64,000 nt of DNA from Paracoccus sediminicola (GTDB taxonomy: Bacteria > Pseudomonadota > Alphaproteobacteria > Rhodobacterales > Rhodobacteraceae): the NCBI RefSeq assembly GCF_027912835.1, contig NZ_CP115768.1:2393501-2457500 (forward strand), given 5' to 3'. The position numbers were made by a program, and so were the translations under genes. The notes beneath the pieces were generated by a model. It ran no database searches and had not been told where the DNA came from. It saw nothing but the letters and a program-made list of their open reading frames with translations. This document shows, in pieces, positions 46,184-64,000 of the stretch (positions within the stretch are counted from its first letter, which is position 1; every line of letters starts with the position of its first letter).

Positions 46184-47347
46184 CTAGTGGCTCTTCCTCG
46201 GCCTCACAGTTGCGAGAATCTCTTCAGTGTGCTCGCCAAGGCGAGGCGGGGCGGTTGGGGTCATTACCTCGGTGTCCGAGAAGCGCAACGGTGACCTGAC
46301 GAGCCGGACAGTGCCGTGCCTCTCGTCCGGAACCTCCTGCACCAGGCCGCGTATCTGGACTTCGGGCGAGGTAAACACTTCCGCGACAGATCGCACCTTA
46401 CCGGCAGGCACGCCCTTAGCATCAAGCTCGGCGAGCCATTCATTGGTTGGACGGGTTGCAAACAGCCGCTGCAGTTCGGGGATGAGCGTTTCGCGATTGT
46501 CGACCCTGTCGCGGTTAAGCAGATAGCGGGGATCTGCAGCGAGGTCGGGGCGGCCGAATACGTCCTCGCAAAGCCTGCGGAACTGCCCGTCATTGCCGCA
46601 GGCGAGCGCGACGGTCCCGTCGGCTGTGTCGAAAAGCTGGTATGGCACGACCGTGGCGTGGGCGTTGCCGAACCGGCCCGGATCGCGCCCGGTATTGAGG
46701 TGGCCGGTCGCCACATTGGCGAGAAGTGCGACAGCGCTTTCAAAAAGGGAAAGGTCAATATGCTGGCCGCGTCCTGTCCTTTCACGGGCGAATAGAGCCG
46801 CAAGGATGGCCTGGACCCCGTTCATTCCCGTCACGATGTCGGTAATCGCAACGCCCAGCTTCATGGGGCAGCCATCTGGCCCGCCCGTGATCGCCATGAG
46901 GCCGCTCTCGGCCTGGATGGTGAAATCGTAGCCGCCCTCGCGGGCACGCGGCCCGGTACGGCCGTAACCGGAAATCGAACAGTAGATCAGGCCGGGATTC
47001 GTTTCCCACAGGCTGTCCGGGTTGAGACCATAAGAGTTCAGGGCACCAAGCCGAAAGTTCTCAACCAGCACGTCTGCCCGCCCGGCCAGTTCATGTAAGG
47101 CGGCAAGATCTTCTGGATTTTTGAGATCGAGCGCAACAGATTTTTTGCTGCGGTTGCAGGCGAGATAGTAGGTCGATTCTCCGTCGATATCGGGCGGCAT
47201 CCAGCCGCGAGTATCGTCGCCCTTGCCCGGCTGCTCGATTTTCCAGACCTCTGCGCCGAGGTCGGCGAGGGTCTGGGTGCAGATGGGGCCGGCAAGGACG
47301 CGACTTAGATCGAGTACTGTGATGCCCGTTAGCGGCGCGGCGCCCAT
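46184..47347 (-). CDS. CaiB/BaiF family CoA-transferase
   Basis: A 387-residue class III CoA-transferase. It opens with LTGITVLDLSRVLAGPICTQTLADLGAEVWKIEQP, the classical family start, and holds NRSKKSVALDLKNPED and GYDFTIQAESGLMAITG. The catalytic aspartate lies in the region after NVATGH/early-mid protein, which I did not place exactly. It moves CoA between acids through an aspartyl-CoA intermediate. A second, different CaiB gene lies two genes upstream, and such pairs may form heteromeric transferases as BbsEF do. Its start overlaps the SDR stop by ATGA. Confidence 0.9.
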   Translation of the reverse strand: MGAAPLTGITVLDLSRVLAGPICTQTLADLGAEVWKIEQPGKGDDTRGWMPPDIDGESTYYLACNRSKKSVALDLKNPEDLAALHELAGRADVLVENFRLGALNSYGLNPDSLWETNPGLIYCSISGYGRTGPRAREGGYDFTIQAESGLMAITGGPDGCPMKLGVAITDIVTGMNGVQAILAALFARERTGRGQHIDLSLFESAVALLANVATGHLNTGRDPGRFGNAHATVVPYQLFDTADGTVALACGNDGQFRRLCEDVFGRPDLAADPRYLLNRDRVDNRETLIPELQRLFATRPTNEWLAELDAKGVPAGKVRSVAEVFTSPEVQIRGLVQEVPDERHGTVRLVRSPLRFSDTEVMTPTAPPRLGEHTEEILATVRPRKSH

Positions 47348-48144
47348 CAGTCAGCCTCAATCATGTGAAGCCCGGCACCGATATGTGCCCCTCCGTCGAT
47401 CTGGATCAACTGACCGGTCATCATTCGACCGGCAGGGCTTGCGAGAAACGCGGTAAGTTCGGCCACCTCCTCAACTTTCGTGTCCATATGCATCGGTGTC
47501 GCCTCCAGCAGCGTATCGAGCATTTCGCGAGCAGCCTCATCCGACAGACCTGCGGTAACGACGGTGCCAGGTCCGATGCAGTTGAGCCGGATGCCATCCC
47601 CGGCCCATTCCAGCGCCAGCGAACGTGTCATGCCCAGTACACCGGCTCGTGCTGCGACGGAATGGGCCAGACCCATGGAACCGCGCTCAACACCGGAAAG
47701 GCTCATATTCACGACGGCACCTTGCCGTTCTTTGAGGAACGGGTATGCGGCCTTCGTCGCCGCAAACACAGCGGTCAGGTTCAGGTCGATGACCGCCTCC
47801 CAGCCTCCCTTGCTGATGTTCGTCGCCGGAGCGAAGAATTGTCCGCCGGCATTGTTCACAAGCAGGTCGATCCCGTGCGCCTCGCCAGCCTCCGCGATCT
47901 TGGCCACAAGCTTCTCGCTCTCGCGCACATTGACGCTCTTCCATCGGAACGAACCGGGCATACTGCTGGCCGTTTTCTCGACGTCCTTCAACGGATCCTC
48001 GCGCCGGCCGATGCCGGTGACGTCCATGCCAAGTTGGCACAGGCGTAGGGCGATCGCGCGACCGATGCCCGTTCCCGCGCCGCTGACAACGGCTCCCATT
48101 CCGGACATCAGGCCGTCCTTCAGTACAGTGACTTCAGCGCTCAT
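47347..48144 (-). CDS. SDR family oxidoreductase
   Basis: A 265-residue short-chain dehydrogenase with GAVVSGAGTGIGRAIALRL (cofactor site), LLVNNAGGQFFAP and MNMSLS-region serine. The catalytic tyrosine motif is altered: the usual YxxxK appears as HSVAARAGVLGMTRSLALEW, so tyrosine and lysine are not evident. This may be a non-catalytic partner or an unusual enoyl-reductase-like member. The start at 48144 is set by GGAGGAG; the longer frame overlaps the next gene. It lies between two CaiB genes, with short overlaps on both sides. Confidence 0.88.
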   Translation of the reverse strand: MSAEVTVLKDGLMSGMGAVVSGAGTGIGRAIALRLCQLGMDVTGIGRREDPLKDVEKTASSMPGSFRWKSVNVRESEKLVAKIAEAGEAHGIDLLVNNAGGQFFAPATNISKGGWEAVIDLNLTAVFAATKAAYPFLKERQGAVVNMSLSGVERGSMGLAHSVAARAGVLGMTRSLALEWAGDGIRLNCIGPGTVVTAGLSDEAAREMLDTLLEATPMHMDTKVEEVAELTAFLASPAGRMMTGQLIQIDGGAHIGAGLHMIEAD

Positions 48145-49234
48145 GGCTGACTCCTCCATTCGATGTCGGTTGTCCAAGAGGCGGCGCCGGCTGTCTGTCG
48201 ATGCGCTTCCCGTTGAAAAGGGCCGGGAAGGCCGGTACGGCCTCGCCATTATCGCGGATGGTCACGCCGGCGTCCGGCCGAAGTGTCCGGATGACGTCCA
48301 GAGCTTCGCCAGGATGGCGGACCTTACCGGCGGGAATTCTGAGCCGGGCGAGTGTCGACAAAACGTCATCGGCTTGTTGCGGACGGGTCCAGGCCTCGAC
48401 GTTTGCATCGAACTCCTCTGCGCGCGCCATCCGCTCGGAAAAGCTGGCATGAGGACCGCCTGTCTCGTTGCGAAGCGACTGCCAGTACGGATCGAGGCCG
48501 CCGTAGATATAGACGTGCCCGTCGGCACATTCGTAGATCCCGGAGGGCGAGGAGGCCCGATCTCGGTTGCCGGACGGCGCGCCGAGCGTTCCGCCTTCAG
48601 ATAGAAGGATGGCAGCCGGTCCCAGCAGCATGGCCGAGGCGACCTCCATCATCGTGAGGTCAATCACGATGCCGCCAGCCCTCTTGGCATCAAGCACGGC
48701 CATAGCCGTTGACATGGCCGCATAGTGCCCGCTGTAAAAGTCCACCGGCCATGAGGTGGAGACGCGCGGTGTGCCATCGACGTTTCCGTTCATCCATGCA
48801 AAACCACTCTCGCACTGTGCGATCGTATCCATGCATGTCCGGTCATCGTCCTGCCCATAGCCCGACACGTAGGTGGCCACGATCTGCGGAAATCGGTCGA
48901 GGATCCTGTCCGGGCCGAGATTAAGTCGCCGGAGGCCCCTTGGCGCGAGATTGCAGATCATCGCATCCGCGCGGGAAAGCAGATCTGCAAGCACCGATGC
49001 ATCGTCGTCGCGGCGCGTATCAAGAATTCGGCTTTCCTTGCCGGTATTAAAACAGCGAAAATAGGCCGAGCCGTGTTCGCTTCCGGGAAGGGCACGGGAT
49101 CCATCACCATTCGCGGGCTCGATCTTGACGACGCTCGCGCCGAAGTCGGCAAGAAGCTGGCCCGCGGTCGGACCGGCAATGAACTGCGAGAACTCGACGA
49201 CCGTCCGGCCCGCAAGGGGTGTCGGCGTTGCCAT
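48134..49234 (-). CDS. CaiB/BaiF family CoA-transferase (second)
   Basis: A 366-residue class III CoA-transferase with LAGRTVVEFSQFIAGPTAGQLLADFGASVVKIEPANGD, GSAYFRCFNTGKESRILD and ATYVSGYGQDDDR. Compared with the 46.2-kb copy it is shorter and clearly diverged, so the two are not a recent duplication. Together they match the two-subunit pattern of succinyl-CoA:benzylsuccinate CoA-transferase. It is 4 bp from the CoA ligase stop. Confidence 0.9.
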   Translation of the reverse strand: MATPTPLAGRTVVEFSQFIAGPTAGQLLADFGASVVKIEPANGDGSRALPGSEHGSAYFRCFNTGKESRILDTRRDDDASVLADLLSRADAMICNLAPRGLRRLNLGPDRILDRFPQIVATYVSGYGQDDDRTCMDTIAQCESGFAWMNGNVDGTPRVSTSWPVDFYSGHYAAMSTAMAVLDAKRAGGIVIDLTMMEVASAMLLGPAAILLSEGGTLGAPSGNRDRASSPSGIYECADGHVYIYGGLDPYWQSLRNETGGPHASFSERMARAEEFDANVEAWTRPQQADDVLSTLARLRIPAGKVRHPGEALDVIRTLRPDAGVTIRDNGEAVPAFPALFNGKRIDRQPAPPLGQPTSNGGVSHER

Positions 49235-49238
49235 TTGA

Positions 49239-50573
49239 TCACTCCCGGATCAGGCGCTTGGCCTTGTGGACGGTTCGCGGAAGGGTTCCCGGTTCGAGGA
49301 TCTCGATATCGAAACGGACGTTCAGCTTGTCGCGGAGCTTCTGCTGCAGGCTCGCTTCCAGACCGTCATCGCTTCCAGCCTCCCGTTCGACCCGCAGCAG
49401 AATGCGCTTCAAAAAGCCCGTCTCGGGATCCTTCATGCCGTCGTCGACAAATATAGCGTATTCGTTTGTCGTGCCCTCATGGGCGCGGACGACGTCCTCG
49501 ACTGCGGACGGGAAGAGGTTCACGCCGCGCACGATAAGCATGTCGTCGCCGCGTCCCTGAACACCGCCGACAAGTCGGGCGTGGGTCCGCCCATCGAGCG
49601 CGACAGACCGGTCACGGACCACGATATCCCCTGTCCACCACCGCACGAGGGGGCATGCCTGCTTGTCCAGATGGGTGAGGACAAGCACGCCCGCCTCACC
49701 ATCGGGCACAGGTTCGTCGGTTTCCGGATCCAGAACCTCGGTATAGATGAAATCTTCTGCTATAACCGGGCCATCCTGCCGAGCGGTGTCCCAGCCAATC
49801 GGCTGGCACTCAAGAGCGCCGTAGCAGTCGAACATCTTCGCACCCCACTGGCGCTCGATGCGTTCGCGCGTGCCCGGAATCGAACCGCCCGGCTCACCAC
49901 CGACACACACCATCTCGACACTCGATTTGCGCAGGTCAACGCCCCGCTTCGCCGCATTTTCGGCAATATGCGCCATGAAGGACGGGGTACCGATCACACA
50001 GCGCGGCTTGTATTCCAAGATCGTGTCGATCTGCCTCTCGGTATCGACGGACCCTCCGGGGATTACGAGTGCGCCGAGATGCTGGGCAGCGAGCGATGCT
50101 CCGAGACCGCCGACAAACCAAGAGTAGCCGAACATGCAGTGAAAAACATCGTCCTTGCGAAGGCCCTGTGCGTAAAGATAGCGCGCATACAGGTCGGACC
50201 AGCGCCCGATGTCGGAATGGCTCCAGAGTACCGGTGCCGGACGCGAGGTGGTGCCGGAGGAATAGTGGACACGAGCCGCGTCAGCCATTTCCACAGCTCT
50301 AAACGTGCCGAAGGGCGGATCCGCAGCAAGCCCGGCCACGTAGTCCTTTTTCTTCGTCAGAGGTAACTTCAAGAGATCCGCAAAATCCGAAAACGCATGC
50401 GGATCGAAACCGGTCTCCTTGAACAGCTTGGCATAATGCGCGCTTTTCTCGCCGACACGAACAAGTTGCGTCTTCAACTGATCAAGCTGGAAAGCTTCGA
50501 TGCGGTCCCGCGACCAGGTCTCGACCTCGTCCCAGATGGTGTCGCTATAGGGTTCCTTGGGCGAAGCGTGCAT
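49239..50573 (-). CDS. Phenylacetate-CoA ligase family (AMP-forming) protein
   Basis: A 444-residue AMP-forming ligase of the PaaK class, the expected 430-450 residues. The adenylate loop is YSSGTTSRPAPVLW, with CYGALECQPIGWD, WWTGDIVVRD and GRGDDMLIVRGVNLFPSAVED. It would activate an aryl or related acid to its CoA ester. The start at 50573 (MHASPKEP) has GGGAG 8 bp upstream and lies inside the tetR coding end. Having both a ligase and CoA transferases suggests two acids, or that one activates the substrate and the other moves CoA along the pathway. Confidence 0.9.
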   Translation of the reverse strand: MHASPKEPYSDTIWDEVETWSRDRIEAFQLDQLKTQLVRVGEKSAHYAKLFKETGFDPHAFSDFADLLKLPLTKKKDYVAGLAADPPFGTFRAVEMADAARVHYSSGTTSRPAPVLWSHSDIGRWSDLYARYLYAQGLRKDDVFHCMFGYSWFVGGLGASLAAQHLGALVIPGGSVDTERQIDTILEYKPRCVIGTPSFMAHIAENAAKRGVDLRKSSVEMVCVGGEPGGSIPGTRERIERQWGAKMFDCYGALECQPIGWDTARQDGPVIAEDFIYTEVLDPETDEPVPDGEAGVLVLTHLDKQACPLVRWWTGDIVVRDRSVALDGRTHARLVGGVQGRGDDMLIVRGVNLFPSAVEDVVRAHEGTTNEYAIFVDDGMKDPETGFLKRILLRVEREAGSDDGLEASLQQKLRDKLNVRFDIEILEPGTLPRTVHKAKRLIRE

Positions 50574-51225
50574 CAATGGGTCTCCCGTCATTTCGCAACC
50601 CGCTCATCGCAAAGTCGACCAGTATTTCTTGAAGCGCGACCGTATCGGCATCGGTCTGAAGCCTGCGCGGCCGATACCAGACGGTGACCCAGTTCATCGC
50701 GCCGAAGAACGGTTTGGTCAGAAGGCGCGGGGACAGGTCCTTGAAGATACGCTCGCGTGCGCCCTGGGCAATTACTTCGGCAAACATTTCTTCGTAGTTG
50801 TCGCGCGAGCGGTTGATTTCGGCAAGCACCTTCGTGTGCCGAAACCCCTTCTGCTCGAACAGATAACGCTCGAGCCCCTGTACTGCTACTTTGTGGATGG
50901 GTGTTTCCGTCAGAAGAAGTTTCACATGCGCATGCGCCATTGCACGCAGCTTGTCTTCGGTCGGGAGGTCGCTTCGTGCGACCGGCTCCACCATCATGGA
51001 CAATCGCTCCATGGCCAACCGCTGGATATCGAAGAAGATCTGCGACTTGCTGCGATAGTGGTAGTAGACCATTCCTTTTGTTGCGCCGATCCGCTCTGCG
51101 ATCGCGTCGATAGATGTCGCTGAATATCCGAAATCCATGAAAAGTTCTGCCGCGACAGAAATGATCTGGCGGCGCGGATCGCGCTCCATTGTGGAATCGG
51201 ATTGTTGGTCTGCGTTCTTGCTCAT
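50545..51225 (-). CDS. TetR-family transcriptional regulator
   Basis: A 226-residue TetR protein. The HTH is around residues 30-60: SATSIDAIAERIGATKGMVYYHYRSKSQIF. The C-terminal effector domain is of the KstR2/FadR-like acyl-CoA-sensing size. It overlaps the ligase start. Two 16-bp CATAC-n6-GTATG sequences lie at the divergent promoter at 58.2-58.4 kb and are its likely operators, with an acyl-CoA as probable inducer. Confidence 0.9.
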   Translation of the reverse strand: MSKNADQQSDSTMERDPRRQIISVAAELFMDFGYSATSIDAIAERIGATKGMVYYHYRSKSQIFFDIQRLAMERLSMMVEPVARSDLPTEDKLRAMAHAHVKLLLTETPIHKVAVQGLERYLFEQKGFRHTKVLAEINRSRDNYEEMFAEVIAQGARERIFKDLSPRLLTKPFFGAMNWVTVWYRPRRLQTDADTVALQEILVDFAMSGLRNDGRPIDARFAQGTL

Positions 51226-51255: not shown

Positions 51256-52416
51256 TCATTTTGCCGCCGAAGCATCTTTGTGAATCGACCGCGCCAGAAC
51301 CAGCCGCTGGATCTCCGATGTGCCCTCGTAGATCTGCAGGATTCGCTGGTCGCGGTAGAGTCGTTCGGCGACATTCGGCTTGCAATAGCCGAAACCGCCC
51401 CAGATCTGAACTGCCGTGTCGGCGGCGCGGTGCGAAACTTCCGATGTGTAGAGTTTAGACATCGCTCCAAGCGAGGATACGTCTTCGCCGGCATCATAGG
51501 CTCTCGCAGCCTCGTAAAGCATCATCCGGGCTGCTGAGACTTCTGTCGCCATGTCCGCAAGGGCAAAGCCGATCCCCTGGTTTTCGATGATCTTCTTACC
51601 GAATGCCTCACGGTCGGCGGCACGCGCCGACGCGGTGTCGTAGGCGCCCAGCGCAAGGCCGGTCGACTGCGCCGAAACCATGATGCGGCCGACGGTCAGC
51701 GTCTGCAGGGCGAGACGCAAGGCCCGCCCCTCTTCGCCAACCTGTGCTTCGGCACTGACCCAGGTATCGAGCTTCAGGTTCGAAGTCTGGGTTCCACGAA
51801 TGCCCATCTTGTCGTTCAACTCATCGATCTCGACACCATCTGCTTCCTTGTCGACCATGAAGGCGGTAATGCCGCGTCCCCCGGCGGCCGGATCGGTTTT
51901 GGCGAAAACCACGTAATAGCGCGACGCTCCGCCATTTCCGATCCAGTACTTTTCACCCCGGATCCGCCAGCCTCCATTCTCGCGTAAGGCTGTCGCGGTG
52001 ATGGCCGCTGCATCCGAACCGGTGGAGCGTTCGGAAAGGGCAAACGAGGTTGCCGTTCCCTCTGCCATAGCGCCAAGATAAAGTTTTTTCTGCGCTTCTG
52101 TGCCGCCCAGAAGGACCGGAAAGGCGCCGAGCTGGCAGGCGCAGAGGATCGCAGCCGTCGACGCGCAGCCTCGCCCGATCCGCTCGACGACCGCAACGGT
52201 CGTTCGAAGGGGCGCACCCCTTCCGCCATAGGCCTCAGGAATGAAAAGCCCGGCGAGACCGCTATCGACCAGCGCCTCGACGTTTTCCCAGGGATAGCGT
52301 TGTTCGCGGTCGAGTTTGTCGGCCAGCGGCGCGAACTTCTCGTCCGTCAGGCGAGCAGCCTTGTCCAACCACGCGCGCGCATCCTCGTCTAGTTTCGGTT
52401 CCCAAATGACACCCAT
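51256..52416 (-). CDS. Acyl-CoA dehydrogenase
   Basis: A 386-residue flavoprotein of the acyl-CoA dehydrogenase family. It has GTATSFALSERSTGSDAAAI (FAD/substrate loop), YWIGNGGASRYYVVFAK and the C-terminal catalytic-base region RILQIYEGTSEIQRLVLAR. It would introduce the alpha,beta double bond. Its start shares bases with the livM stop. The BbsG position in a bbs-like set would fit, but chain specificity cannot be read. Confidence 0.93.
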   Translation of the reverse strand: MGVIWEPKLDEDARAWLDKAARLTDEKFAPLADKLDREQRYPWENVEALVDSGLAGLFIPEAYGGRGAPLRTTVAVVERIGRGCASTAAILCACQLGAFPVLLGGTEAQKKLYLGAMAEGTATSFALSERSTGSDAAAITATALRENGGWRIRGEKYWIGNGGASRYYVVFAKTDPAAGGRGITAFMVDKEADGVEIDELNDKMGIRGTQTSNLKLDTWVSAEAQVGEEGRALRLALQTLTVGRIMVSAQSTGLALGAYDTASARAADREAFGKKIIENQGIGFALADMATEVSAARMMLYEAARAYDAGEDVSSLGAMSKLYTSEVSHRAADTAVQIWGGFGYCKPNVAERLYRDQRILQIYEGTSEIQRLVLARSIHKDASAAK

Positions 52417-53411
52417 CACGTGCTCCTCGTATTTTTGCTATCGGCAATGGCCTGAACCTGTTTCGCACTGTTTGGCTTCAGCACCCTGAAACCGCTCCGG
52501 AACAGGCCGAGCAGACCGCCCGGCAGGAAGGACAGAACCAGAATGAGAACCGTGCCGAGTATAATGCGATCCACATAGGCGCCGTAGGACAGGAAGCGTT
52601 CCTGCAGGATGATGAGAGCGACCCCCGCGAGTGGTGCAAGCAACACACGCCTGCCGATCAGCACCACCGCCGTCAGGATCAGGATCAGAAAGTAGATCGC
52701 AAGAACGTCGGCGCTTATATAGGCGCGCTGGTAAGCGTAGAGCCATCCTGCGGAGGCCGTGATCGGCGCAGAGAACAGGAAGACCTGCATCCTGACCGCT
52801 GCAGGATTGATGCCGCTCATCGTGGCGAGTGCGGGGTTGAGATGCACCGTCATGGCAGCGTGGCCGAGGCGCGAGCGCCTGAAGCTCGATACGAACCACA
52901 GCGCGACGAGCAGCAGCATCCAAGCCACAGGCCAGAGGTCGCGGTCATTCCGGGCAGTGAAGCCTGGCAGCGAAAAGACCGGTATGCCGCTGATTCCGTC
53001 CGAACCACCGATGAAGGTCCAGTTAGAGGCGATGGTCATTGCGACGACTGTCACGGCGTAGGTCACGAGCGAGAATACAAATTGCCGAAGTCTCAAGGTC
53101 GCCAGCGCGATTGCGCCGGCCACGACAAGCGTCAGGACGATCGTCGCGGCAAGCGAGACAAGTGGATTGGCGCCTAAGCGGCTGGTGGTCATCGCCGTGG
53201 TGTAAGCGCCGATCGCGAAGAAAACCGTATGGGCGAGGCTGACCTCACCAAGGTCGGAAACGATGATGTCAAGCCCGTAGGCCATGACCGCGAAGATCGC
53301 GATGACGACGAGAGCAGAATAGACCGCGCTGCTGCCGCCGAGGGCCATCGGCAGGAAGAATCCGCCAATGCCAAGAATGATCCACATGCCAGCTTGAGCG
53401 ACGCCTGACAT
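52416..53411 (-). CDS. livM: Branched-chain/aryl acid-type ABC transporter permease (LivM)
   Basis: A 331-residue inner-membrane protein with about ten hydrophobic segments. It contains MAYGLDIIVSDLGEVSLAHTVFFAIGAYT and the EAA-like RSRLGHAAMTVHLNPALA of LivM. It pairs with LivH. The adjoining catabolic genes make an aromatic or other organic acid a more likely substrate than leucine, but this is inference. Confidence 0.92.
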   Translation of the reverse strand: MSGVAQAGMWIILGIGGFFLPMALGGSSAVYSALVVIAIFAVMAYGLDIIVSDLGEVSLAHTVFFAIGAYTTAMTTSRLGANPLVSLAATIVLTLVVAGAIALATLRLRQFVFSLVTYAVTVVAMTIASNWTFIGGSDGISGIPVFSLPGFTARNDRDLWPVAWMLLLVALWFVSSFRRSRLGHAAMTVHLNPALATMSGINPAAVRMQVFLFSAPITASAGWLYAYQRAYISADVLAIYFLILILTAVVLIGRRVLLAPLAGVALIILQERFLSYGAYVDRIILGTVLILVLSFLPGGLLGLFRSGFRVLKPNSAKQVQAIADSKNTRST

Positions 53412-54279: not shown

Positions 54280-55010
54280 GCAGCGGCTCCCAGATAGGCT
54301 TCTGCAATGCGCTTGTCTTCGCGCATCTCGTCTGCTGTGCCAGACGTCACGATCCGACCACGTTCCAGCAGCATCAGCCGGTCGACGACCTTCAGCGCTG
54401 CTTCTACATTTTGCTCGATCAGCAGCACAGTCAGACCGTCGTTGGCAAGATCGTGGATCGTGCTCAATACGCTCGACACGAGTTTCGGTGCGAGGCCGAT
54501 CGACGGCTCGTCAAGACAGAGAACACGCGGGGCGAGGCGAAGCGCACGAGCAATGCCGAGCATCTGACGCTCCCCGCCCGAAAGCTGGCTTCCAAGGTGA
54601 TGGCGACGCTTGGCGAGGTTCGGAAAGAGATCGTAAATGTCATCCAGGGAATAAATGTCACGCCCGGCCCCAGGATTGGTCGCTGCATGAGCCAGATTGT
54701 CGGCGACGCTCATCTGGCTGAAGATTAATGTGCTCTCGGGGATCAGAAGAAGACCGCGGCGGACGCGCTGCGCGGTGGACATCTGGCTGACGTCCTCACC
54801 GTCGAGCTCGACCCGGCCCGAAACTTTGGGATCGCCGCGTGACCAGCCGAGGATGGCGCCGACCAGCGTGGACTTGCCAGCGCCATTGGGCCCGACAACA
54901 CCGAGCAGTTCGCCGCGGCGAACTGTCAGCTTGCCGATCACCAAAGCCCGGTTGCCGCCATAATCGGCCGTGAGGTCCGTGATGGTCAGGATGGGATCGC
55001 TGATGCTCAT
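54276..55010 (-). CDS. livF: LIV-type ABC transporter ATP-binding protein (LivF)
   Basis: A 244-residue ATPase with Walker A GPNGAGKSTLVGAILGW, signature LSGGERQMLGIARAL, Walker B RVLCLDEPSIGLAPKLV and H-loop LIEQNVEAAL. It is one of the two ATPases of the importer. It overlaps livG and livH by 4 bp each, so the five-subunit core is tightly coupled. Confidence 0.94.
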   Translation of the reverse strand: MSISDPILTITDLTADYGGNRALVIGKLTVRRGELLGVVGPNGAGKSTLVGAILGWSRGDPKVSGRVELDGEDVSQMSTAQRVRRGLLLIPESTLIFSQMSVADNLAHAATNPGAGRDIYSLDDIYDLFPNLAKRRHHLGSQLSGGERQMLGIARALRLAPRVLCLDEPSIGLAPKLVSSVLSTIHDLANDGLTVLLIEQNVEAALKVVDRLMLLERGRIVTSGTADEMREDKRIAEAYLGAAA

Positions 55011-55806: not shown

Positions 55807-56976
55807 TCAGTTCTGGCCGTCGCGGACAACGATCTCGCCGTCGGCCACATCGAACAGATAATGGTTGGAGATGAGCTGGCCACTGTCCTCAAAGGCGACG
55901 TCACCAAAAATGGTGCCATTAAATCTGCCGCCTCGGATGCGTTCGGCAACTGCGTCCTTTTCGAACGAACCGACCTCTTCAACAGCCATCGCCCAGACCT
56001 GAAGCGCAGCGGCGCCCAATGCCATGAACTTGTCCGGCGTGTAATCATGCATTTCCTCGGTCTTCGCCACGAAGCGCTGGTTCATCTCGTTCGATGCGAA
56101 GGGTTCTACATTCGGGAAATAGATGTCGGCTCCGATGAGGCCGTCCGCGCCGGGGCCGGCCACCTCGATCACGCTTGGTGCAACCGTCCCGACCGCGGCG
56201 ACCAGTTCGCCTGGAAGTCGCGAACGCTTCGCCTGCCGGATAAGCGCCGGCATGCCGAGCCCCTCATTCGCGTTGATCGCGACCGTCACGTCAGGATTGG
56301 CTGACCGGACGTTGGACAGTTGTACGCGGAAATCAGCCTGCTCGAACGGGAACTTTTCTTCAGCGACTTTTTCATATTCGTGGCCCATCGCTTGCAGCGC
56401 ACCCTCAATCGATTCCTGGGCACCATTGCCGTAGGCGTCGTTCTCGGTCAGGAACGCGACACGCGTGAATTCGTTGTCGGCGATGTAACGTGCGACCACT
56501 TCGCCATCCTGCGCATTGGAGCTGTTGAACCGCACCGGTAGCGAGTTGCCTTCGCCGGAAAGGATCGGGTCGGCCTTTGAAATGGCCGTGAGGTCGAGAA
56601 TGCCGGCACGGCTGATGACCGGCTGCATCGCCAGCGTCACCGGGCTGTTCCAGCCCTCGATGATGACCTCGACACCTTCGGAAATCAATTCGTTGGCACG
56701 CGAGACACCGACCGCCGGCGTACTTTCGTCATCACGGCTGACCAGTTCGATCTGGCGTCCCATGACCCCGCCTTCTTCGTTGATGATATCTGCCATAGCC
56801 TCAATTGCCCAGTTCACGTGCTGACCCTGTGGGCCGGCACCGCCGCTCAACGGAAAGATGAGCCCAACCTTTACTGGCTCGCCACCATCGCTGCTCTGAT
56901 CCTGCGCATGGGCGAAATTCAGCGAGGCGCCGAACGTCGCGGCGGCGAGTAATATTCCCTTCAACCTGTTTCCCAT
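55807..56976 (-). CDS. livK: LIV-type ABC substrate-binding protein (proximal copy)
   Basis: A 389-residue periplasmic-binding protein with signal peptide ending NFAHAQ. It contains KVGLIFPLSGGAGPQGQHVNWAIEAMADI and FLTENDAYGNGAQESIEGAL. The copy at 57.0 kb is highly similar along its entire length, so the two arose by duplication. The start at 56976 has GGGAGGAAG. It delivers the substrate to LivHMGF. Confidence 0.92.
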   Translation of the reverse strand: MGNRLKGILLAAATFGASLNFAHAQDQSSDGGEPVKVGLIFPLSGGAGPQGQHVNWAIEAMADIINEEGGVMGRQIELVSRDDESTPAVGVSRANELISEGVEVIIEGWNSPVTLAMQPVISRAGILDLTAISKADPILSGEGNSLPVRFNSSNAQDGEVVARYIADNEFTRVAFLTENDAYGNGAQESIEGALQAMGHEYEKVAEEKFPFEQADFRVQLSNVRSANPDVTVAINANEGLGMPALIRQAKRSRLPGELVAAVGTVAPSVIEVAGPGADGLIGADIYFPNVEPFASNEMNQRFVAKTEEMHDYTPDKFMALGAAALQVWAMAVEEVGSFEKDAVAERIRGGRFNGTIFGDVAFEDSGQLISNHYLFDVADGEIVVRDGQN

Positions 56977-57034: not shown

Positions 57035-58210
57035 CTATTTCGCCGATGAGCTTTCCCCGGGTGTCTCGTCCCCGTCATCGACCACAATGGTCTGCCCAGA
57101 GACTGAGAACGTGAAGTGATTGCTGATCATCTGACCATTGTCTTCAAAGGTGATGTCGCCAAGGATGGTGTTCTCGAAGCTGCCGCCCCTGATTCGCTCA
57201 CCTACCGCGCCTTTTTCGAAGGATCCGACATCGCTAACCGCCTGAGACCAGATCTGAAGCGCAACAGCGCCGAGTGCCATGTACTTGTCGGGCGTGTAGT
57301 CGAACTCGCCCTCGACCTTAGCGACAAAGCGCTGATTAGCTTCGTTCGACGCGAAGGGCTCGACATTCGGGAAGTAGATATCAGCGCCGACCAGCCCGTC
57401 GGCGGTGTCGCCCGCGACATCAATGACGCTCGGCGCGACCGTACCGACCGCAGCAACAAGCTGACCCGGCAGGCGCGAGCGTTTTGCCTGTCTGATAAGC
57501 GCCGGCATGCCGAGTCCTTCATTGGCGCTGATCGCCACCGTGACGTCCGGATTGGCAGCCTTGACGTTGGATAGCTGAACGCGGAAATCGGATTGCTCGA
57601 ACGGGAATTTCTCTTCCGCTACCTTCTGGTACTCATAGTCCATCTCGGCGAACGCATCCTCTATCGCCTGCTGCGCCCCATTGCCGTACGCGTCATTCTC
57701 GGTGAGGAAGGCCACGCGGGTCCAGCCGTTCTCGGCGATGTAATTGGCGGTCACGACGCCATTCTGAGCGTTTGAACTGTTCAGGCGAACCGCAAGCGCA
57801 TTGCCTTCACCGGACAGAATTCCGTCGGCACTTGAAAAAACCGTGATGTCCATGATGTCGGCCCGGTCGATGACCGGCTGCATGGCCAGTGTGACCGGGC
57901 TGTTCCAGCCTTCGATGAAAACCTCGACGCCTTCGCTGATCAGTTCATTGGCCCGCGAGACGCCGATCGCAGGTGTGCTCTCATCGTCGCGGCTGATCAG
58001 TTCGATCTGCCGCCCGAGAACGCCGCCCTGCTCATTGAGGATTTCGGCCATTGCCTGAATGGCCTGAATGACATGCCGTCCCTGCGGGCCGGCCCCCCCG
58101 CTTTGCGGAAAGATTACCCCTACCTTCACGGGGCCCTCTTGCGAGGAGGCCATGGCGGGAATGGCGACGGCTGCGGCGAGCAGCACCGATGCGACGATTC
58201 TTGCCTTCAT
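57035..58210 (-). CDS. livK: LIV-type ABC substrate-binding protein (distal copy)
   Basis: A 391-residue paralogue of the neighbouring binding protein, with signal peptide MKARIVASVLLAAAVAIPAMA. The conserved core includes QAIQAMAEILNEQGGVLGRQIELISRDDESTP. Differences cluster in the signal peptide, the tail and a few loops. It is the first gene of the minus-strand operon, next to the TetR-like operator. Two copies could widen the substrate range or raise binding-protein supply. Confidence 0.92.
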   Translation of the reverse strand: MKARIVASVLLAAAVAIPAMASSQEGPVKVGVIFPQSGGAGPQGRHVIQAIQAMAEILNEQGGVLGRQIELISRDDESTPAIGVSRANELISEGVEVFIEGWNSPVTLAMQPVIDRADIMDITVFSSADGILSGEGNALAVRLNSSNAQNGVVTANYIAENGWTRVAFLTENDAYGNGAQQAIEDAFAEMDYEYQKVAEEKFPFEQSDFRVQLSNVKAANPDVTVAISANEGLGMPALIRQAKRSRLPGQLVAAVGTVAPSVIDVAGDTADGLVGADIYFPNVEPFASNEANQRFVAKVEGEFDYTPDKYMALGAVALQIWSQAVSDVGSFEKGAVGERIRGGSFENTILGDITFEDNGQMISNHFTFSVSGQTIVVDDGDETPGESSSAK

Positions 58211-58403: not shown

Positions 58404-59189
58404 ATGATGCAGTCACGAGATTCGGGAGTGATCGGTGTCGACCGCAGGGGGCACGTGGTCGTCATCCGTATCCAGCGACCTGAAGTGCGTAACGCGTTGA
58501 ATCTGGCGGTGTTGGAAGGTCTGCGCGACAGTTTGGCGGAGGCCGACCGCGACGATTCGGTCCGGGTAATCGTCTTGACAGGTGGAGAGGGCGATTTCTC
58601 CGCGGGCGCGGATATCGATATGCTGTCCGGTCAGACGTCTGCAGGATACGCGCGATCGGTCAACGCGCGATGCTTCAAAGAAATTCGCCGGACAGAAAAG
58701 CCGCTTGTTGCGGCGGTTTCTGGGTTTTGCCTCGGCGGGGGATGCGAGATCGCGCTCGCCTGCGACGTAGTGATTGCTTCCGATACGGCCCGCCTTGGTC
58801 AGCCGGAAATCCGTCTTGGGATCATTCCGGGGGCAGGGGGCACGCAACTCTGGCGAAGGCGCGCCGGTGATGGTGTCCAGTCTGTGGCCGCGCTTGGTGG
58901 TGCTGCGATCGGCGCCTTTACTGCCCGCAGAGCTGGGCTTGTCGACCGCGTGGTCCCGTGCGGGGGCGTAATCGAAGAAGCCTGCCAGTTCGGCGCCGAG
59001 CTGGCGAAGAATGGTCCTCTGGCGCTTCCTGCGGCAAAGCGCGTCATGCGCGCAAGCTGGAACATGTCGCTTTCCGGAACCTTGGATCACGAAGTCTCGG
59101 TCATGGCGGGACTTCTGTCCAGTTCGGATGCCGCGGAAGGTATCGCCGCGTTCCAGCAAAAGCGTCCACCAGTATTCGAGGGTCGATGA
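58404..59189 (+). CDS. Enoyl-CoA hydratase/isomerase family protein
   Basis: A 261-residue crotonase. Oxyanion-hole and active-site motifs are FSAGADIDMLSG (about residues 66-77), VSGFCLGGGCEIALACD and GQPEIRLGIIPGAGGTQ with the catalytic glutamate. It adds water to an enoyl-CoA in beta-oxidation. The start at 58404 has GGTGGAGG upstream; a GTG at 58383 is an unlikely alternative. It opens the plus-strand arm and overlaps the next gene by ATGA. Confidence 0.92.
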   Translation: MMQSRDSGVIGVDRRGHVVVIRIQRPEVRNALNLAVLEGLRDSLAEADRDDSVRVIVLTGGEGDFSAGADIDMLSGQTSAGYARSVNARCFKEIRRTEKPLVAAVSGFCLGGGCEIALACDVVIASDTARLGQPEIRLGIIPGAGGTQLWRRRAGDGVQSVAALGGAAIGAFTARRAGLVDRVVPCGGVIEEACQFGAELAKNGPLALPAAKRVMRASWNMSLSGTLDHEVSVMAGLLSSSDAAEGIAAFQQKRPPVFEGR

Positions 59190-59719
59190 CAATGAAGACG
59201 ATCCGGTTGGACGGGCAGGACGACAGAGACTTGGCGAAAGTTCTGGCGCGCAATCTGCGTTCGGAAGACGGGCTTGAGGTCGTGGGGCTGGCTAGCGAGG
59301 GTGTTGGCCCCGACGCAGTTGGATGGATCAGGGCGTTGGACGATGCCAGAATTCCCGTCAGCGTTCGGATTTCCGGCAAGGTGGGGATGCGCGGCATCCT
59401 TCTTCTCCTCCTCGCTGATCGGAGCGCTGTGGAAGAAGGCTCGGCCAGTGCAGCCGGGTTTCACCCGCTTATCGCCGTCGTAGCGTCGGCGCGTCTTGGA
59501 TCCCTTGCAGCGCGCCGATTGGCGCGTGCGAAAGATCACCTTTCGGTTCTTCGGGACGAGGGGGTCATCGCCACGGGGCCCGAAATCAAAGGCGAGAGGC
59601 AGGTCTGGCGAGCGATCCGCGAGCTGCCCTTCAGTGAGGCTCTCGACTTTGCAGCTGCTGCGACGCGGCAGAGCCATAACAAGGAAGAGCATAGCGATGA
59701 GCACCGATCCACGCTTTGA
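59186..59719 (+). CDS. Unrecognised protein encoded between enoyl-CoA hydratase and DUF35 genes
   Basis: A 177-residue protein I do not recognise. It starts by ATGA overlap with the hydratase stop, and its own end overlaps the DUF35 gene, so it belongs to the operon. Visible features: GLEVVGLASEGVGPDAVGWI, a leucine-rich hydrophobic stretch GILLLLLADRSAVEEGSA, then SARLGSLAARRLARAKDHL and LPFSEALDFAAAATRQ. The order of hydrophobic and alanine-rich parts faintly recalls a shortened, diverged crotonase fold. No catalytic residues can be named. Confidence 0.7.
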   Translation: MTMKTIRLDGQDDRDLAKVLARNLRSEDGLEVVGLASEGVGPDAVGWIRALDDARIPVSVRISGKVGMRGILLLLLADRSAVEEGSASAAGFHPLIAVVASARLGSLAARRLARAKDHLSVLRDEGVIATGPEIKGERQVWRAIRELPFSEALDFAAAATRQSHNKEEHSDEHRSTL

Positions 59720-60083
59720 TGGGGCGGGCCCGGAGGCACGTTGGCGTGACGCCCTCGGCCAGGGACGCTTCACCCTGCAGGCATGCGGCGCGTGCAATCA
59801 CTGTCAGTTTCCGCCGCAACTCGTCTGCGGCGAGTGTGGAAGCGTCACGCTTTCGTTCATCGATGCATCCGGTCACGGCACGGTCTATTCCACGACAACC
59901 GTCCGCAAGCGAGACAGGGCCTACAACGTATCGATCATCGAGTTGGACGATGGACCGCGAATTCTGACCCGCGTGGAATGTGATCCCGCAGGTGTCGCGA
60001 TTGGCGAAGCGGTTGTGGCGCGCATCACGCAAGAGGGTGACCAGCCCATCGTCGTCTTCGACCGGATCGGGGGGCGGTCATGA
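59697..60083 (+). CDS. Zn-ribbon/OB-fold protein (DUF35 family)
   Basis: A 128-residue protein. The N-terminal zinc ribbon has CGAC...CGEC (C30, C33, C44, C47) with an extra C36; the rest is an OB fold (GHGTVYSTTTVRKRDRAYNVSIIELDDG). Such proteins form tight complexes with thiolase-fold partners, as BbsA with BbsB or ChsH2-DUF35 with Ltp2, and bind the CoA substrate. Its stop overlaps the thiolase-fold gene start by ATGA, supporting a complex. Confidence 0.9.
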   Translation: MSTDPRFDGAGPEARWRDALGQGRFTLQACGACNHCQFPPQLVCGECGSVTLSFIDASGHGTVYSTTTVRKRDRAYNVSIIELDDGPRILTRVECDPAGVAIGEAVVARITQEGDQPIVVFDRIGGRS

Positions 60084-61237
60084 GCAATCGTTTGCGCGGG
60101 GTCGTCTCGATTGCTGGGATCGGGAACACAAAACGCTGGGACGCCCCGGAGTTCAGCGCTTTTGACCAGTTGCAGGAAGCGGCAATCCTCGCTGTCGAAG
60201 ATTGCGGGCTGTCACTCCAAGATGTGGATGGCCTCTACTGCGCCTCTTCGGTCTCTGGCCTGCCGGTGCTGAACGCGGCCGAGAGGCTTGGCATCGCGAG
60301 GAACCTTCGCCATGCCGATGGCACGATGGTCGGCGGTGCGTCGTTCCTGTTCCACCTGCGCTCTGCCATTTCGGCGCTTGCCGCTGGGCAATGCTCGACC
60401 GCTCTTGTCTGCTACGGCTCAAATCAGCGCAGCGCTGGCGGCAAGCTGGTGCCGATGCCGGATCCGCAGCCTTTCGAGGAGCCATACAGGGCACTCTACC
60501 CGATTTCCAGCTACGCACTGGCTGCTGCGCGTCACATGCACGAATACGGCACGACGCGGGAAGATCTTGCATCTGTCGCCGTCGCTGCGCGGCAATGGGC
60601 GAACCACAATCCGGATGCCTTCAGCAGAGGCGATCTGTCGATAGAAGATGTGCTGTCATCTCGACTTGTCAGCGATCCGCTTTCCAAGGCTGACTGCTGC
60701 CTTGTCACCGATGGCGGCGGGGCGATCGTTCTGACCACCACCGAACGCGCTCGAGATCTAAGACAACCGCTGGTTCCGCTGCTCGGAACGGGGGCTGCCG
60801 TCAGTCATCGACAGATCGCGGCAATGCCGGACCTGACCCGCACCGCGGCCGAACGCTCTGGCCGGGACGCCATGGCGGAAGCGGGTGTATCGCCACCCGA
60901 CGTCGATCACGTGATGGTTTATGACGCGTTCACGATCTGCACATTGCTGTTTCTTGAAGACCTCGGCTTTTGCGAAAAGGGCGAGGCCGGACGCCTTGCC
61001 GCTTCCGGCGCGATCGCCCCGGGCGGTTCGCTTCCCGTCAATACTAATGGCGGAGGCCTCAGCTGTAATCACCCGGGCATGTATGGGCTTTTCACGCTGA
61101 TCGAATCCGTCGAGCAGCTTCGGGGACAAGCGGGCGATCGACAGGTGACCGGTGCGGAAATCAGCGTCGCCCATGCCAATGGCGGCGTCCTAAGCAGCCA
61201 GGCGACCGCCGTTCTCGGAAATGCCGCGACTCTGTAG
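60080..61237 (+). CDS. Thiolase-fold protein (SCP2-like thiolase/aldolase) lacking the nucleophilic Cys
   Basis: A 385-residue SCP2-type thiolase-superfamily protein. Compared with thiolases, the segment holding the nucleophile reads HADGTMVGGASFLFHL (about residues 78-93), with glycine where cysteine is expected. Other active-site blocks remain: LPVNTNGGGLSCNHPGMYG and AHANGGVLSS. Loss of the cysteine with a DUF35 partner is what is known for Ltp2-like aldolases, which cleave a 3-hydroxyacyl-CoA by retro-aldol reaction. A true thiolase with another nucleophile is less likely. It is encoded between its DUF35 partner and the interrupted SDR. Confidence 0.88.
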   Translation: MSNRLRGVVSIAGIGNTKRWDAPEFSAFDQLQEAAILAVEDCGLSLQDVDGLYCASSVSGLPVLNAAERLGIARNLRHADGTMVGGASFLFHLRSAISALAAGQCSTALVCYGSNQRSAGGKLVPMPDPQPFEEPYRALYPISSYALAAARHMHEYGTTREDLASVAVAARQWANHNPDAFSRGDLSIEDVLSSRLVSDPLSKADCCLVTDGGGAIVLTTTERARDLRQPLVPLLGTGAAVSHRQIAAMPDLTRTAAERSGRDAMAEAGVSPPDVDHVMVYDAFTICTLLFLEDLGFCEKGEAGRLAASGAIAPGGSLPVNTNGGGLSCNHPGMYGLFTLIESVEQLRGQAGDRQVTGAEISVAHANGGVLSSQATAVLGNAATL

Positions 61238-61614
61238 ACATTGAAAGGAAGGCACGTGAACAAGCTTCTAGAAGGCAAGACGGCCATCGTGACCGGCGCT
61301 GGGCAAGGGGTCGGTAAGGCGATCGCTGAAGGCCTTTCCGCAGAGGGCGCCAACGTCGTCGTGAACGATATTGGCGTCACACTCACGGGTGAAAAGGACA
61401 ATGCTGGCGCCGCGGAGGAAGTCGCGAAGGGAATCCGTGAGACCGGCGGACAAGCGATCGGAAATACAGAGAGCGTCACCGAGTGGGATGCCGCGGAGCG
61501 AATAGTGCAAGCCGCGATGGACACCTATGGGCGGGTTGATCTCGTGGTGAACAATGCTGGCATCCTGCGCGACGCGATCTTCCACAAGATGCAGCCGAAT
61601 CAGTTCGAAACCGT

Positions 61615-61622
61615 TCTGCGTG
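61615..61622. repeat. Target-site duplication, left copy
   Basis: TCTGCGTG directly precedes the left IS end and is repeated exactly at 63022-63029 after the right end. The 8-bp length is typical of IS256-family insertion. Confidence 0.95.
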
Positions 61623-63021
61623 GGTAGTGCCCCACCGGTTGGTGTAGGAGGCCGCGCGCGGAGCCCCTGGCGTAGCGCAGCGCGCGGCCGGGTGTGACGC
61701 TGGCGGCCATCGTCGATCTTCGGGCAGGTTCGGGTTGCGAGACCTTGAACCAAGAACGGAGATGACGATGACCGACGACAGAATGACGCTGATCGAGCTG
61801 GTTGAGAAGCAGGCTGACGGCGACCTCGTCCGCGAGATGCTGGCCTTCGCGGCCGAGCGGATCATGGAAGCGGAGGTAGAAGAGCGAACCGGCGCCGCGA
61901 AGGGCGCACGTTCGCCCCTGCGGGAGGTTCAGCGGAACGGCTACCGGGACCGGGACTGGGACACCCGTGCCGGGCGGATCGCGCTGGAGATCCCGAAACT
62001 GAGAAAAGGGAGCTACCTGCCCAGCTTCCTGGAGCCGCGCCGCACAGCCGAGAAGGCGCTCGTGGCGGTGATTCAGGAGGCCTACGTCCAAGGTGTTTCC
62101 ACGCGCTCCGTGGACGATCTGGTGAAGGCCATGGGCGCGGGCGGCATGTCGAAGAGCCAGGTCAGTCGCCTCTGCGTCGAAATCGACGAGCGGGTGAACG
62201 CCTTCCTCTCTCGCCCGCTGGAAGGAGCCTGGCCGTATCTCTGGCTCGACGCGACCTACGTGAAGGTGCGTGAGGGCGGACGGATCGTCAGCCGCGCTGT
62301 GATAATCGCCGTCGCGGTCAACGAGGACGGCAAGCGCGAGGTTCTCGGCGTCGCCACCGGTCCTTCCGAAGCAGAAACGTTCTGGACCGACTTCCTGCGC
62401 TCTCTCGCAGACCGTGGCCTGCGCGGTGTGAAGCTGGTCGTAGCCGATGACCACAAGGGGCTGCGGGCTGCTGCGCGGCGAGTGTTCGATGCAACGCACC
62501 AGCGCTGTCGCGTTCACTGGATGCGCAACGCGCTCGCCCATGCTCCGACCAAGCAGCGCACGGCTGTGGCAGCCATGCTGAAGACGATCTTCGCCCAGGA
62601 AAACAAGGCGGATGCCGAAGCCCAATGGGAGGTCGTCGCGGACGCACTGCGCGAGAAGCAGGCGAGGCTCGGCACCCTCATGGACGTCTCGCGCGACGAC
62701 GTGCTCGCCTACATGGATTTTCCCCGCGAGCACTGGGCTCAGATCGCGTCGACAAATCCACTGGAGCGGGTGAACCGGGAGATCAAGCGCAGGTCTGACG
62801 TCATCGGCATCTTCCCGAACGACGAGGCAATCATCCGGCTCGTCGGCGCGCTGATGCTTGAAACCAATGACGAATGGACGGTTGCGCGGAGATATATGTC
62901 TCTTGAAAGCCTCGCGCGCGTCACCGACAATCCCGACATCAGGCTGTCCGCCGTGGCGACCTGATCAGCTTTGGACCTCTCCGAAGGTCGGCGCTCTTAC
63001 ACCATCCCCCGGGGCACTACC
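61623..63021 (+). mobile_element. Intact IS256-family insertion sequence, 1399 bp
   Basis: Terminal inverted repeats begin GGTAGTGCCCC at both ends and continue with GGTGTA(G/A)GAG after a short mismatch, about 28 bp in all. The element holds one full-length transposase and is flanked by a perfect 8-bp target duplication. The intact frame, matching ends and unmutated duplication point to recent transposition. Confidence 0.95.
61762..62964 (+). CDS. IS256-family transposase
   Basis: A 400-residue DDE transposase, normal length for the family. Catalytic blocks: [10 protein letters not shown] (first Asp), [10 protein letters not shown] (second Asp, DDH variant) and [16 protein letters not shown] (Glu). 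The N-terminal [21 protein letters not shown] and [14 protein letters not shown] blocks are characteristic. The start at 61762 has CGGAG upstream; 61768 is an alternative. No stop or frameshift, so likely active. Confidence 0.95.
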
Positions 63022-63029
63022 TCTGCGTG
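63022..63029. repeat. Target-site duplication, right copy
   Basis: TCTGCGTG, identical to 61615-61622, at the junction where the SDR coding sequence resumes. Confidence 0.95.
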
Positions 63030-63576
63030 TGCATCTTTTCGGTAGTTTCAATATCTCACGCGCGGCCGCAACATATTTCCGAACGCAGGAAACGGGCTCG
63101 TTTGTGCACATGACCTCGACGGCCGGCCTGATCGGAAATTTCGGTCAGGCCAACTACATGTCGGCGAAGCTGGGTATCGTCGGACTTTCGCGGGCGATAG
63201 CGATGGATATGCAGCGCTATGGTGTCCGCTCCAACTGCATTGCGCCTTTCGCCTGGAGCCGGATGGTGTCGTCGATCCCGACTGAAACCGAGGCGGACAA
63301 GATCCGCGTGGCGAAGTTGAAACGTATGACGCCTGAAAAGATCGCACCGCTCGTCGCATTTCTCGGCTCTGATCGTGCGACGGGCATCTCGGGACAGATA
63401 TTCTCAGTGCGTAACAACGAAATCTATCTGTTCAACCAGCCGCGTCCGGTCCGCAGCCTGCATCGCGGTGAGGGTTGGACGGCTGAATCGATAGCCGACA
63501 CACTGCCCGATGCATTCGGACCGCATTTTACGCCGCTTGAGCGTTCGGCCGATGTCATTTCGTGGGATCCGGTCTG

Positions 63577-64000
63577 ATGGCACTTAATGCAGTCTATCTG
63601 GCATCGTTGAAAAGGCCAGAGATCATCCAGAAATGGACGGCGAAGGACGCAGCTTTATATGCGCTCGGCCTCGGCTACGGTGATGATCCGACAGATTCCG
63701 AACAGCTGCGTTTTCTGGACAGAACGAAGGGCATGGACGTTATGCCGGCCATGGCGAATGTCCTCTGCTATGACGGAAGCTGGCTGCGCGATCCGGAAGC
63801 TGGGATAGATTATTCGAGGGTCGTGCATGGCGAGCAGGAGATGGTTCTGCACGCGCCTCTGCCGCTTGAGAGTTCGGCGACTGGCAAGACGGTCATCGAG
63901 GAACTGATCGACAAGGGTGAAGGGCGTGGTGCGCTGATCGTGACAGCGCGCGAACTCAAAGATGCGCGGACCGGCCAAATGCTCGCTACGATCCGTCATA
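63577..64000 (+). CDS. MaoC-family dehydratase/enoyl-CoA hydratase 2, 3' truncated by window edge
   Basis: The start overlaps the SDR stop (TGATG). The 141 visible residues match the N-terminal hot-dog domain of MaoC-type hydratases: LGLGYGDDPTDSEQLRFL, VLCYDGSWLRDPEAGIDYSRVVHGEQEMVLHAPLP. The catalytic HxxxxD/N motif would lie beyond the window. SDR plus MaoC together resemble the hydratase-dehydrogenase pair of peroxisomal multifunctional enzyme type 2. Expression may suffer from the upstream IS insertion. Confidence 0.88.
   Translation, partial: MALNAVYLASLKRPEIIQKWTAKDAALYALGLGYGDDPTDSEQLRFLDRTKGMDVMPAMANVLCYDGSWLRDPEAGIDYSRVVHGEQEMVLHAPLPLESSATGKTVIEELIDKGEGRGALIVTARELKDARTGQMLATIRH

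Follow-up and report, generated by a model that had tools for sequence, protein, structure and literature searches.

The bbsA-H operon of benzylsuccinate degradation combines a DUF35 protein, a thiolase-fold protein, two short-chain dehydrogenases (SDRs), two class-III coenzyme A (CoA)-transferases, an acyl-CoA dehydrogenase and a crotonase, and these classes recur in the gene cluster that we assess here, at positions 46184-64000 of a 64,000-nucleotide stretch of the Paracoccus sediminicola genome (hereafter the window; C1:2393501-2457500 in a genome of 3.53 Mb on 7 contigs). Beyond this common set, the cluster adds a ligase, an importer, an MFE-2 hydratase, a reductase of the PRISE family, a PF04199 hydrolase and a second dehydrogenase, and its thiolase-fold protein has no nucleophile Cys. 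The Ltp2-ChsH2 and Sal-Shy pairs share with it a Cys-less thiolase fold, a DUF35 partner and the Tyr of a YD motif, according to the available part of their description (PMC12329534), but the cluster protein carries YDAF rather than YDHF or YDCY, has 4u4e as its top match and is accompanied by a DUF35 protein that is not fused to MaoC. The iad auxin locus of Variovorax, which we liken by its description, also pairs an AMP-forming ligase with a thiolase-family protein, proposed in the accessible portion of the paper to strip an auxin derivative of its acetic side chain (PMC12633357); oxidation by IadCDE comes first in that locus, whereas family scans showed no oxygenase among the cluster genes scanned. 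In Clostridium scatologenes, a phloroglucinol cluster places a 'cyclase'-family enzyme, which performs the retro-Claisen opening of a cyclic diketone, beside a reductase (PMC10470551), but the pathway is anaerobic and serves phloroglucinol, the available part of that paper mentions no LIV importer or acyl-CoA ligase arm, and the metal motif of the enzyme described here departs from the classical one. Finally, the PRISE enzymes of plants (iridoid synthase, progesterone 5-beta-reductase) have PF22917 and the NFY motif in common with the cluster reductase, which is bacterial and sits in a catabolic cluster.

We read the locus as a CoA-dependent catabolic cluster for an exogenous carboxylic acid, with steps in the order proposed below, and put the probability of that overall reading, which draws on sequence comparison, at roughly 0.6. 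That the genes serve the catabolism of some imported acid is very likely, and the acid probably bears a ring. Gene content, order, conservation and active-site residues are observations, and all that we say beyond gene identity is inferred from them. Gene classes were taken from a listing of open reading frames (ORFs) together with Pfam and NCBIfam family scans, and the start codons of SDR1, SBP1, SBP2, ECH and DUF35 were picked by eye. The cluster consists of two arms. Reading down from 58210, the minus-strand arm runs SBP1, SBP2, LivG, LivF, LivH, LivM, ACAD1, TetR, ligase, CoAT2, SDR1 and CoAT1; the plus-strand arm runs from about 58404 through ECH, ORFX, DUF35, the thiolase-fold protein and a split SDR2 to an MFE-2/MaoC hydratase that crosses the window end. 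The features, with residue counts given as rows of the respective alignments, are as follows.

46184..47347, minus: CoAT1, class-III CoA-transferase of formyl/succinyl type (PF02515, 446 bits; PDB 10uh, 418 bits; Asp170 in 18/18 rows)
47347..48144, minus: SDR1, FabG-like short-chain dehydrogenase (PF13561, 168.6 bits)
48134..49234, minus: CoAT2, second, shorter class-III CoA-transferase (PF02515, 267.6 bits; Asp165 in 23/23 rows)
49239..50591, minus: PaaK-like AMP-forming CoA ligase (PF00501, PF14535)
50545..51225, minus: TetR-family regulator (PF00440, PF17932)
51256..52419, minus: ACAD1, acyl-CoA dehydrogenase with YEG-SE motif (PF00441 and others; motif in 32/32 rows)
52416..53411, minus: LivM-like permease (PF02653)
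53413..54279, minus: LivH-like permease (PF02653)
54276..55010, minus: LivF-like ATPase (PF00005; top NCBIfam model LivF, under its cut-off)
55007..55786, minus: LivG-like ATPase (PF00005, PF12399)
55807..56976, minus: SBP2, LIV-type substrate-binding protein (PF13458)
57035..58210, minus: SBP1, LIV-type substrate-binding protein (PF13458)
58404..59189, plus: ECH, crotonase-type enoyl-CoA hydratase with GGGCE and QPE glutamates (PF00378, 204 bits)
59186..59719, plus: ORFX, small crotonase-fold protein
59697..60083, plus: DUF35, ChsH2-type zinc ribbon and OB fold (PF01796, PF12172; closest PDB chain 6ok1_B, ChsH2)
60080..61237, plus: thiolase-fold protein, YDAF, without nucleophile Cys, predicted retro-aldolase (PF22691; PRK06158, 593 bits, cut-off 421)
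61241..61622, plus: SDR2, 5' piece, PRK07791-like (PF00106; top NCBIfam model PRK07791)
61623..63021, plus: IS256-family element, transposase at 61735-62964 (PF00872, NF033543)
63022..63577, plus: SDR2, 3' piece (PF13561)
63562..64000, plus: MFE-2/MaoC-type (R)-hydratase (MFE2), 295 aa when whole, crossing the window end (PF22622, PF01575; Asp195 and His200 in 22/22 rows)

Family scans confirmed that the enzyme classes listed by an earlier, sequence-only reading of this DNA are all present at 46184-64000, and they corrected its count of importer subunits from five to six: besides a pair of permeases and a pair of ATPases, there are two binding proteins in tandem, 77.7% identical to each other. 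The scans returned the full composition of a LIV-type (HAAT) importer, with a LivH/M permease pair, a LivF/G ATPase pair and a LIV-type binding protein. The PDB matches of SBP1 are distant (best 3ip5, 84 bits) and do not settle the ligand class, and the ligase reaches 308 of the 646 bits that the PaaK equivalog cut-off demands.

The grouping of these genes exceeds chance, as the gene order recurs in other genera and in other classes, among alpha- and betaproteobacteria. A ligase scan of genome contigs gave 31 loci, and component mapping covered 38 loci or genomes, of which 30 remained once 8 truncated by contig ends had been removed; the counts exclude L034, in which the match spans 20% of the ligase, and G388, G536 and G159, presumed repeats of L024, L004 and L023; G383 was not in the mapping, L021 was covered over its first 21 kb, and we set identity thresholds gene by gene, from 34% (ECH) to 60% (ACAD2). 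The ligase also matched 322 plasmid records, of which only the two above 60% identity were followed. Close loci, defined as uncut and with a ligase of at least 65% identity, number 17 (8 alpha- and 9 betaproteobacterial, with class assigned by organism name and for one by genome kinship). All 17 hold the importer, ACAD1, TetR, the ligase, SDR1, an ECH and the PF04199 hydrolase together; CoAT2, MFE2 and PRISE are each found in 16, the thiolase-fold protein and DUF35 in 14, CoAT1 in 11 (three of them at merely 49-51% identity), and SDR2 and ACAD2 in 8, all alphaproteobacterial. Betaproteobacterial loci carry another SDR in 8/9 cases and a quinone-oxidoreductase-like protein and a third CoA-transferase in 4/9. 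Both arms are thus linked in every uncut close locus, which bears out two proposals of the sequence-only reading, that they form one conserved unit and that they probably encode a route for some other acid taken up from outside; the search for the same gene order in other genomes, which it had named as a check, gave this result.

Distribution of the cluster is patchy. In whole-genome searches at E <= 1e-110, the ligase occurred in the host and 8 of 384 other genomes of a class sample and in the host and 2 of 294 others of a family sample, and it was not found in the single genus-mate searched. Strong gene order together with patchy spread suggests that the cluster was transferred as a unit, and the cluster has probably moved horizontally. 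The importer arm also occurs, at 40-64% identity, in one Streptomyces and one Frankiales contig, whose clusters hold a type-I CoA-transferase (PF01144), that of Streptomyces also a PF04199 protein of its own. Where the ligase is more distant (13 loci), the importer arm was found only in the Streptomyces locus, and 4 loci have the PF04199 hydrolase with an identity of at least 50%.

The plus-strand operon extends about 3.7 kb beyond the window, up to the end of the PF04199 gene, and the MFE-2 hydratase is followed there by a second acyl-CoA dehydrogenase (ACAD2), a PRISE-family reductase, the PF04199 'cyclase' hydrolase and then a TAXI/TRAP transporter. The reductase matches PF22917 at 46 bits (cut-off 27), the single match in the genome and absent from all 14 control genomes; iridoid synthase is its best solved relative (110 bits), and NFY, which we take to be the characteristic PRISE motif, stands in 20/20 rows. 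The hydrolase scores 46.8 bits against PF04199 (cut-off 23.1), presumably the 'cyclase' family of isatin hydrolase and diketone cyclohydrolase, and occurs with at least 59% identity in 17 of the 24 genomes that carry the ligase. Both genes lay outside the view of the sequence-only reading, are about as conserved as the other cluster genes and correspond to nothing in the bbs set that it listed. The TAXI-type binding protein and fused TRAP permease lie at window-equivalent positions 67923-71143; the pair is also present in Pelagivirga (67 and 73% identity), several betaproteobacteria have a tripartite-tricarboxylate-type binding protein beside the hydrolase, and the pathway may therefore include a second uptake system. 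The conserved active-site residues of PRISE, ACAD1, CoAT1, CoAT2 and MFE2 make these proteins look like working enzymes in the relatives.

Central to the proposed chemistry is the thiolase-fold protein. At the nucleophile place, where BbsB (7pxp) reads SACSAG, it reads DGTMVGG; Cys occurs there in 0/27 aligned rows, while YDAF and NHPGMYG are kept in 27/27 (rows of at least 40% identity and 70% coverage, in which a genome appears twice where loci overlap, so that 27 rows represent about 17 genomes). Among solved structures it scores 360 bits against 4u4e, 174 against 9myr (a lipid-transfer-type protein with YDCY, which we take to be Sal), 151 against Ltp2 (6ok1) and 138 against BbsB. The neighbouring gene encodes a zinc-ribbon DUF35 protein with the Cys pattern, the partner that the Ltp2 and Sal aldolases have; ChsH2 is its best PDB match, at 46 bits, and no BbsA chain is among its 7 PDB matches at E <= 1. 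For both Ltp2 and Sal, the YD-motif Tyr has been proposed to serve as catalytic base, and Sal carries Gly at its nucleophile place (PMC12329534). Lack of the nucleophile Cys makes thiolysis unlikely and a retro-aldol cut the nearest precedent, and we think that the protein probably acts as a DUF35-partnered retro-aldolase, a judgement that carries real doubt. The Streptomyces and Frankiales stretches that were fetched yielded neither the thiolase-fold protein nor DUF35, and by eye both have a FadA-like ORF with an NMACASG motif between ligase and CoAT2. This contrast between proteobacterial and actinobacterial loci parallels the split seen in bile-acid side-chain breakdown, for which the accessible part of one account has beta- and gammaproteobacteria cutting with an aldolase and Rhodococcus thought to use a Cys-containing thiolase (PMC8399759).

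ORFX, which the sequence-only reading did not list, has no Pfam match. A similar-sized ORF lies between ECH and DUF35 in 9/9 alphaproteobacterial loci measured (gap 530-617 bp), and the gap is just 18-24 bp in 6 betaproteobacterial loci, each genome counted once. An AlphaFold model built from 11 sequences (predicted local distance difference test 87, predicted template-modelling score 0.79) has crotonases as its best PDB matches (best E 5.6e-6, Foldseek probability 1.00; template-modelling score 0.51-0.64 by query length over the top 50 rows, a few of them ClpP). By eye, ORFX is without both glutamates retained by ECH in GGGCE and QPE, presumably the catalytic residues, and from the model we read it as a putative non-catalytic partner of ECH.

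In the pathway that we propose, the acid would be taken up by the LIV-type ABC system and activated to its CoA ester by the PaaK-like ligase, ACAD1 would desaturate the acyl-CoA, and ECH or the MFE-2 hydratase would hydrate it to a beta-hydroxyacyl-CoA, from which the thiolase-fold protein and its DUF35 partner would release acetyl- or propionyl-CoA and a ketone or aldehyde by retro-aldol cleavage. The PRISE enzyme would then reduce an enone, the PF04199 hydrolase would open the ring, as dihydrophloroglucinol cyclohydrolase does with a cyclic diketone, the class-III CoA-transferases would load CoA onto the newly formed acid, and ACAD2 and the SDRs would complete the last round, with TetR presumably controlling the cluster. 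Ring opening by the PF04199 enzyme, suggested by its family and gene company, is a tentative step, somewhat short of even odds. If correct, this pathway would make the cluster a self-contained unit for import, activation, side-chain cleavage, ring opening and control in soil, plant-associated and marine bacteria. The most informative marker of the unit is its enone reductase, which among solved structures is related to iridoid synthases of plants and to steroid reductases. Identifying the substrate could reveal the bacterial means of removing a class of acids made by plants or algae; it would also put right annotations like 'acetyl-CoA acetyltransferase' and 'BbsA-like'.

As to what that acid might be, one specific but doubtful suggestion, for which we would give long odds, is that the pathway handles plant or algal cyclic-ketone acids of jasmonate/oxylipin or apocarotenoid type, which would lose their acetic side chain as acetyl-CoA after exocyclic hydration, through the action of the Cys-less, DUF35-partnered aldolase. 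Jasmonate would give cyclopentane-1,3-dione for retro-Claisen opening by the PF04199 enzyme, and PRISE would act on cyclopentenones such as oxophytodienoic acid (OPDA). Such a pathway would unite, in a new combination, an enone reductase of plant type with a C-C hydrolase and a thiolase-fold aldolase of a third kind. Abscisic acid loses a C2 unit to give dehydrovomifoliol, which would suit a retro-aldol step, but it offers no obvious PF04199 step, and jasmonate suits both, on paper only. Searches of open-access PMC found no paper naming the substrate of the cluster, and those on abscisic-acid and jasmonate catabolism, proteobacterial PRISE, iad and the product names found no title or abstract on it among the papers listed.

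Several observations weigh against the pathway as drawn. In 19/19 rows the PF04199 hydrolase has Gln at two places that the classical, His-rich motif fills with metal-binding His; the Asp and the following His are retained, and its closest solved relative, 5ibz, is uncharacterised and shares the same substitutions. Given this change in the metal motif, ring opening by the hydrolase is a guess. At its third position the YD motif has Ala in 27/27 rows, where Ltp2 has His and Sal has Cys. Neither the thiolase-fold protein nor DUF35 was found in the fetched stretches of 3 of the 17 close loci (Ramlibacter, a Kiruna metagenome-assembled genome and an Alcaligenaceae), so that the aldolase step is either not universal or encoded elsewhere. 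With just 34-38% identity, the betaproteobacterial ECH that entered the counts could be a different enzyme. An aldehyde dehydrogenase lies near the cluster in Variovorax VAI-C and none was noticed in the other loci displayed, which counts against an aldehyde product. Divergent homologues of the ligase (51-56% identity) adjoin quite different enzymes; as the ACAD-TetR-ligase triad is found with other enzyme sets, it serves several pathways and cannot fix the substrate.

The alternative that survives best, though still unlikely, places the PF04199 enzyme first: a lactone, cyclic imide or diketone, for example a maleimide acid from tetrapyrrole breakdown, would be hydrolysed, the ligase and beta-oxidation would take the open acid, and PRISE would reduce an activated double bond. 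This order agrees with a 'cyclase' family that includes isatin hydrolase and diketone cyclohydrolase, as far as the available part of the source goes (PMC10470551), and with the G217 and G114 loci, in which hydrolase, ligase and ACAD still stand together and importer and aldolase were not found. However, from a LIV-type importer one would expect an acid or amide as cargo, not a neutral ring compound, and the altered metal motif tells against this order as well. That the locus is a chance gathering of generic beta-oxidation genes serving no single pathway is improbable: every enzyme class is common, and about 66 kb beyond the window end there is a related DUF35-thiolase-SDR2-MFE2 set in different surroundings, yet alpha- and betaproteobacteria share the gene order, two actinobacterial contigs have the importer arm in common with them, and the distribution is patchy.

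The sequence-only reading had likened the cluster to the benzylsuccinate genes class for class, and a Bbs-type route, in which an aryl- or alkylsuccinate would be activated by CoA transfer, oxidised and cleaved by true thiolysis, draws on that one-for-one overlap and on the 138-bit BbsB match of the thiolase-fold protein. We consider such a route highly improbable. The Bbs equivalog models stay far under their cut-offs (BbsA 22.4 of 250 bits, BbsB 148.5 of 750), and the BbsB model has no match over its cut-off in this genome or in the 14 control genomes. The CoA-transferases are nearer to other families: against solved structures CoAT1 scores 418 bits with formyl-CoA transferase 10uh and 169 and 96 with the benzylsuccinate CoA-transferase subunits (9fn0), and CoAT2 scores 108 bits with another transferase and 70 and 42 with the 9fn0 subunits. 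A conserved CoA ligase would also be superfluous if a transferase activated the acid. The PFL-like family PF02901, which we take to be that of the fumarate-adding glycyl radical enzyme, has 0 matches in the genome and matches in 3 of the 14 control genomes. Membership of the Bbs system was rejected on the BbsA and BbsB model scores, the solved-structure scores of the CoA-transferases, DUF35 and the thiolase-fold protein, the missing nucleophile Cys and the failure to find a PFL-like enzyme in the genome; these results support no closer relationship, and the likeness, judged from sequence, is one of enzyme classes. Steroid or bile-acid side-chain degradation, suggested by a DUF35 protein nearest to ChsH2 and a thiolase-fold protein that also matches Ltp2 (6ok1) and 9myr, is equally improbable, given that the best match is 4u4e rather than either of these, the YD motif differs, DUF35 is standalone and unfused to MaoC, and no steroid-ring gene was noticed within the cluster (no genome-wide search was made).

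The loci with divergent ligases have contents of their own. In Herbaspirillum, Duganella and the G295 and G105 loci, the ACAD-TetR-ligase triad lies beside a LeuC/LeuD-like hydratase and a PrpB-like lyase (by eye, with NCBIfam for the proteins of L030 and L066 only). Four such loci (L030, L033, L065 and L066) also carry an NMT1/SsuA-type ABC importer, to which L066 adds a TauD-like dioxygenase, and these four probably encode another pathway, perhaps for a methyl-branched diacid. The second set in the Paracoccus genome, at C1:2514000-2533500, comprises DUF35, SDR2-like and MFE2-like genes and a 59%-identical thiolase-fold protein that likewise, by eye, has YDAF and no nucleophile Cys; it also holds an ADP-forming-type CoA ligase, a class-III CoA-transferase and an HpcH-like lyase (by eye), with its own TAXI/TRAP transporter.

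SDR2 is interrupted by the 1,399-bp IS256-family insertion sequence (IS) element at 61623-63021, which has imperfect terminal inverted repeats (21 of 26) and an 8-bp target duplication, TCTGCGTG. Six identical copies of its transposase are spread over three contigs of the genome, from which the insertion into SDR2 looks recent; it probably disables SDR2 in this strain and may affect the genes downstream. Other neighbours lie to the left of the cluster. At 40097-43703 the window holds a phosphonate-type binding protein, a DeoR-type regulator and an Na/Pi cotransporter-PhoU protein, which nothing ties to the cluster, and between these and CoAT1, at 44531-46171, are remnants of IstB (IS21) together with part of an IS110-type transposase, an arrangement resembling an island boundary.

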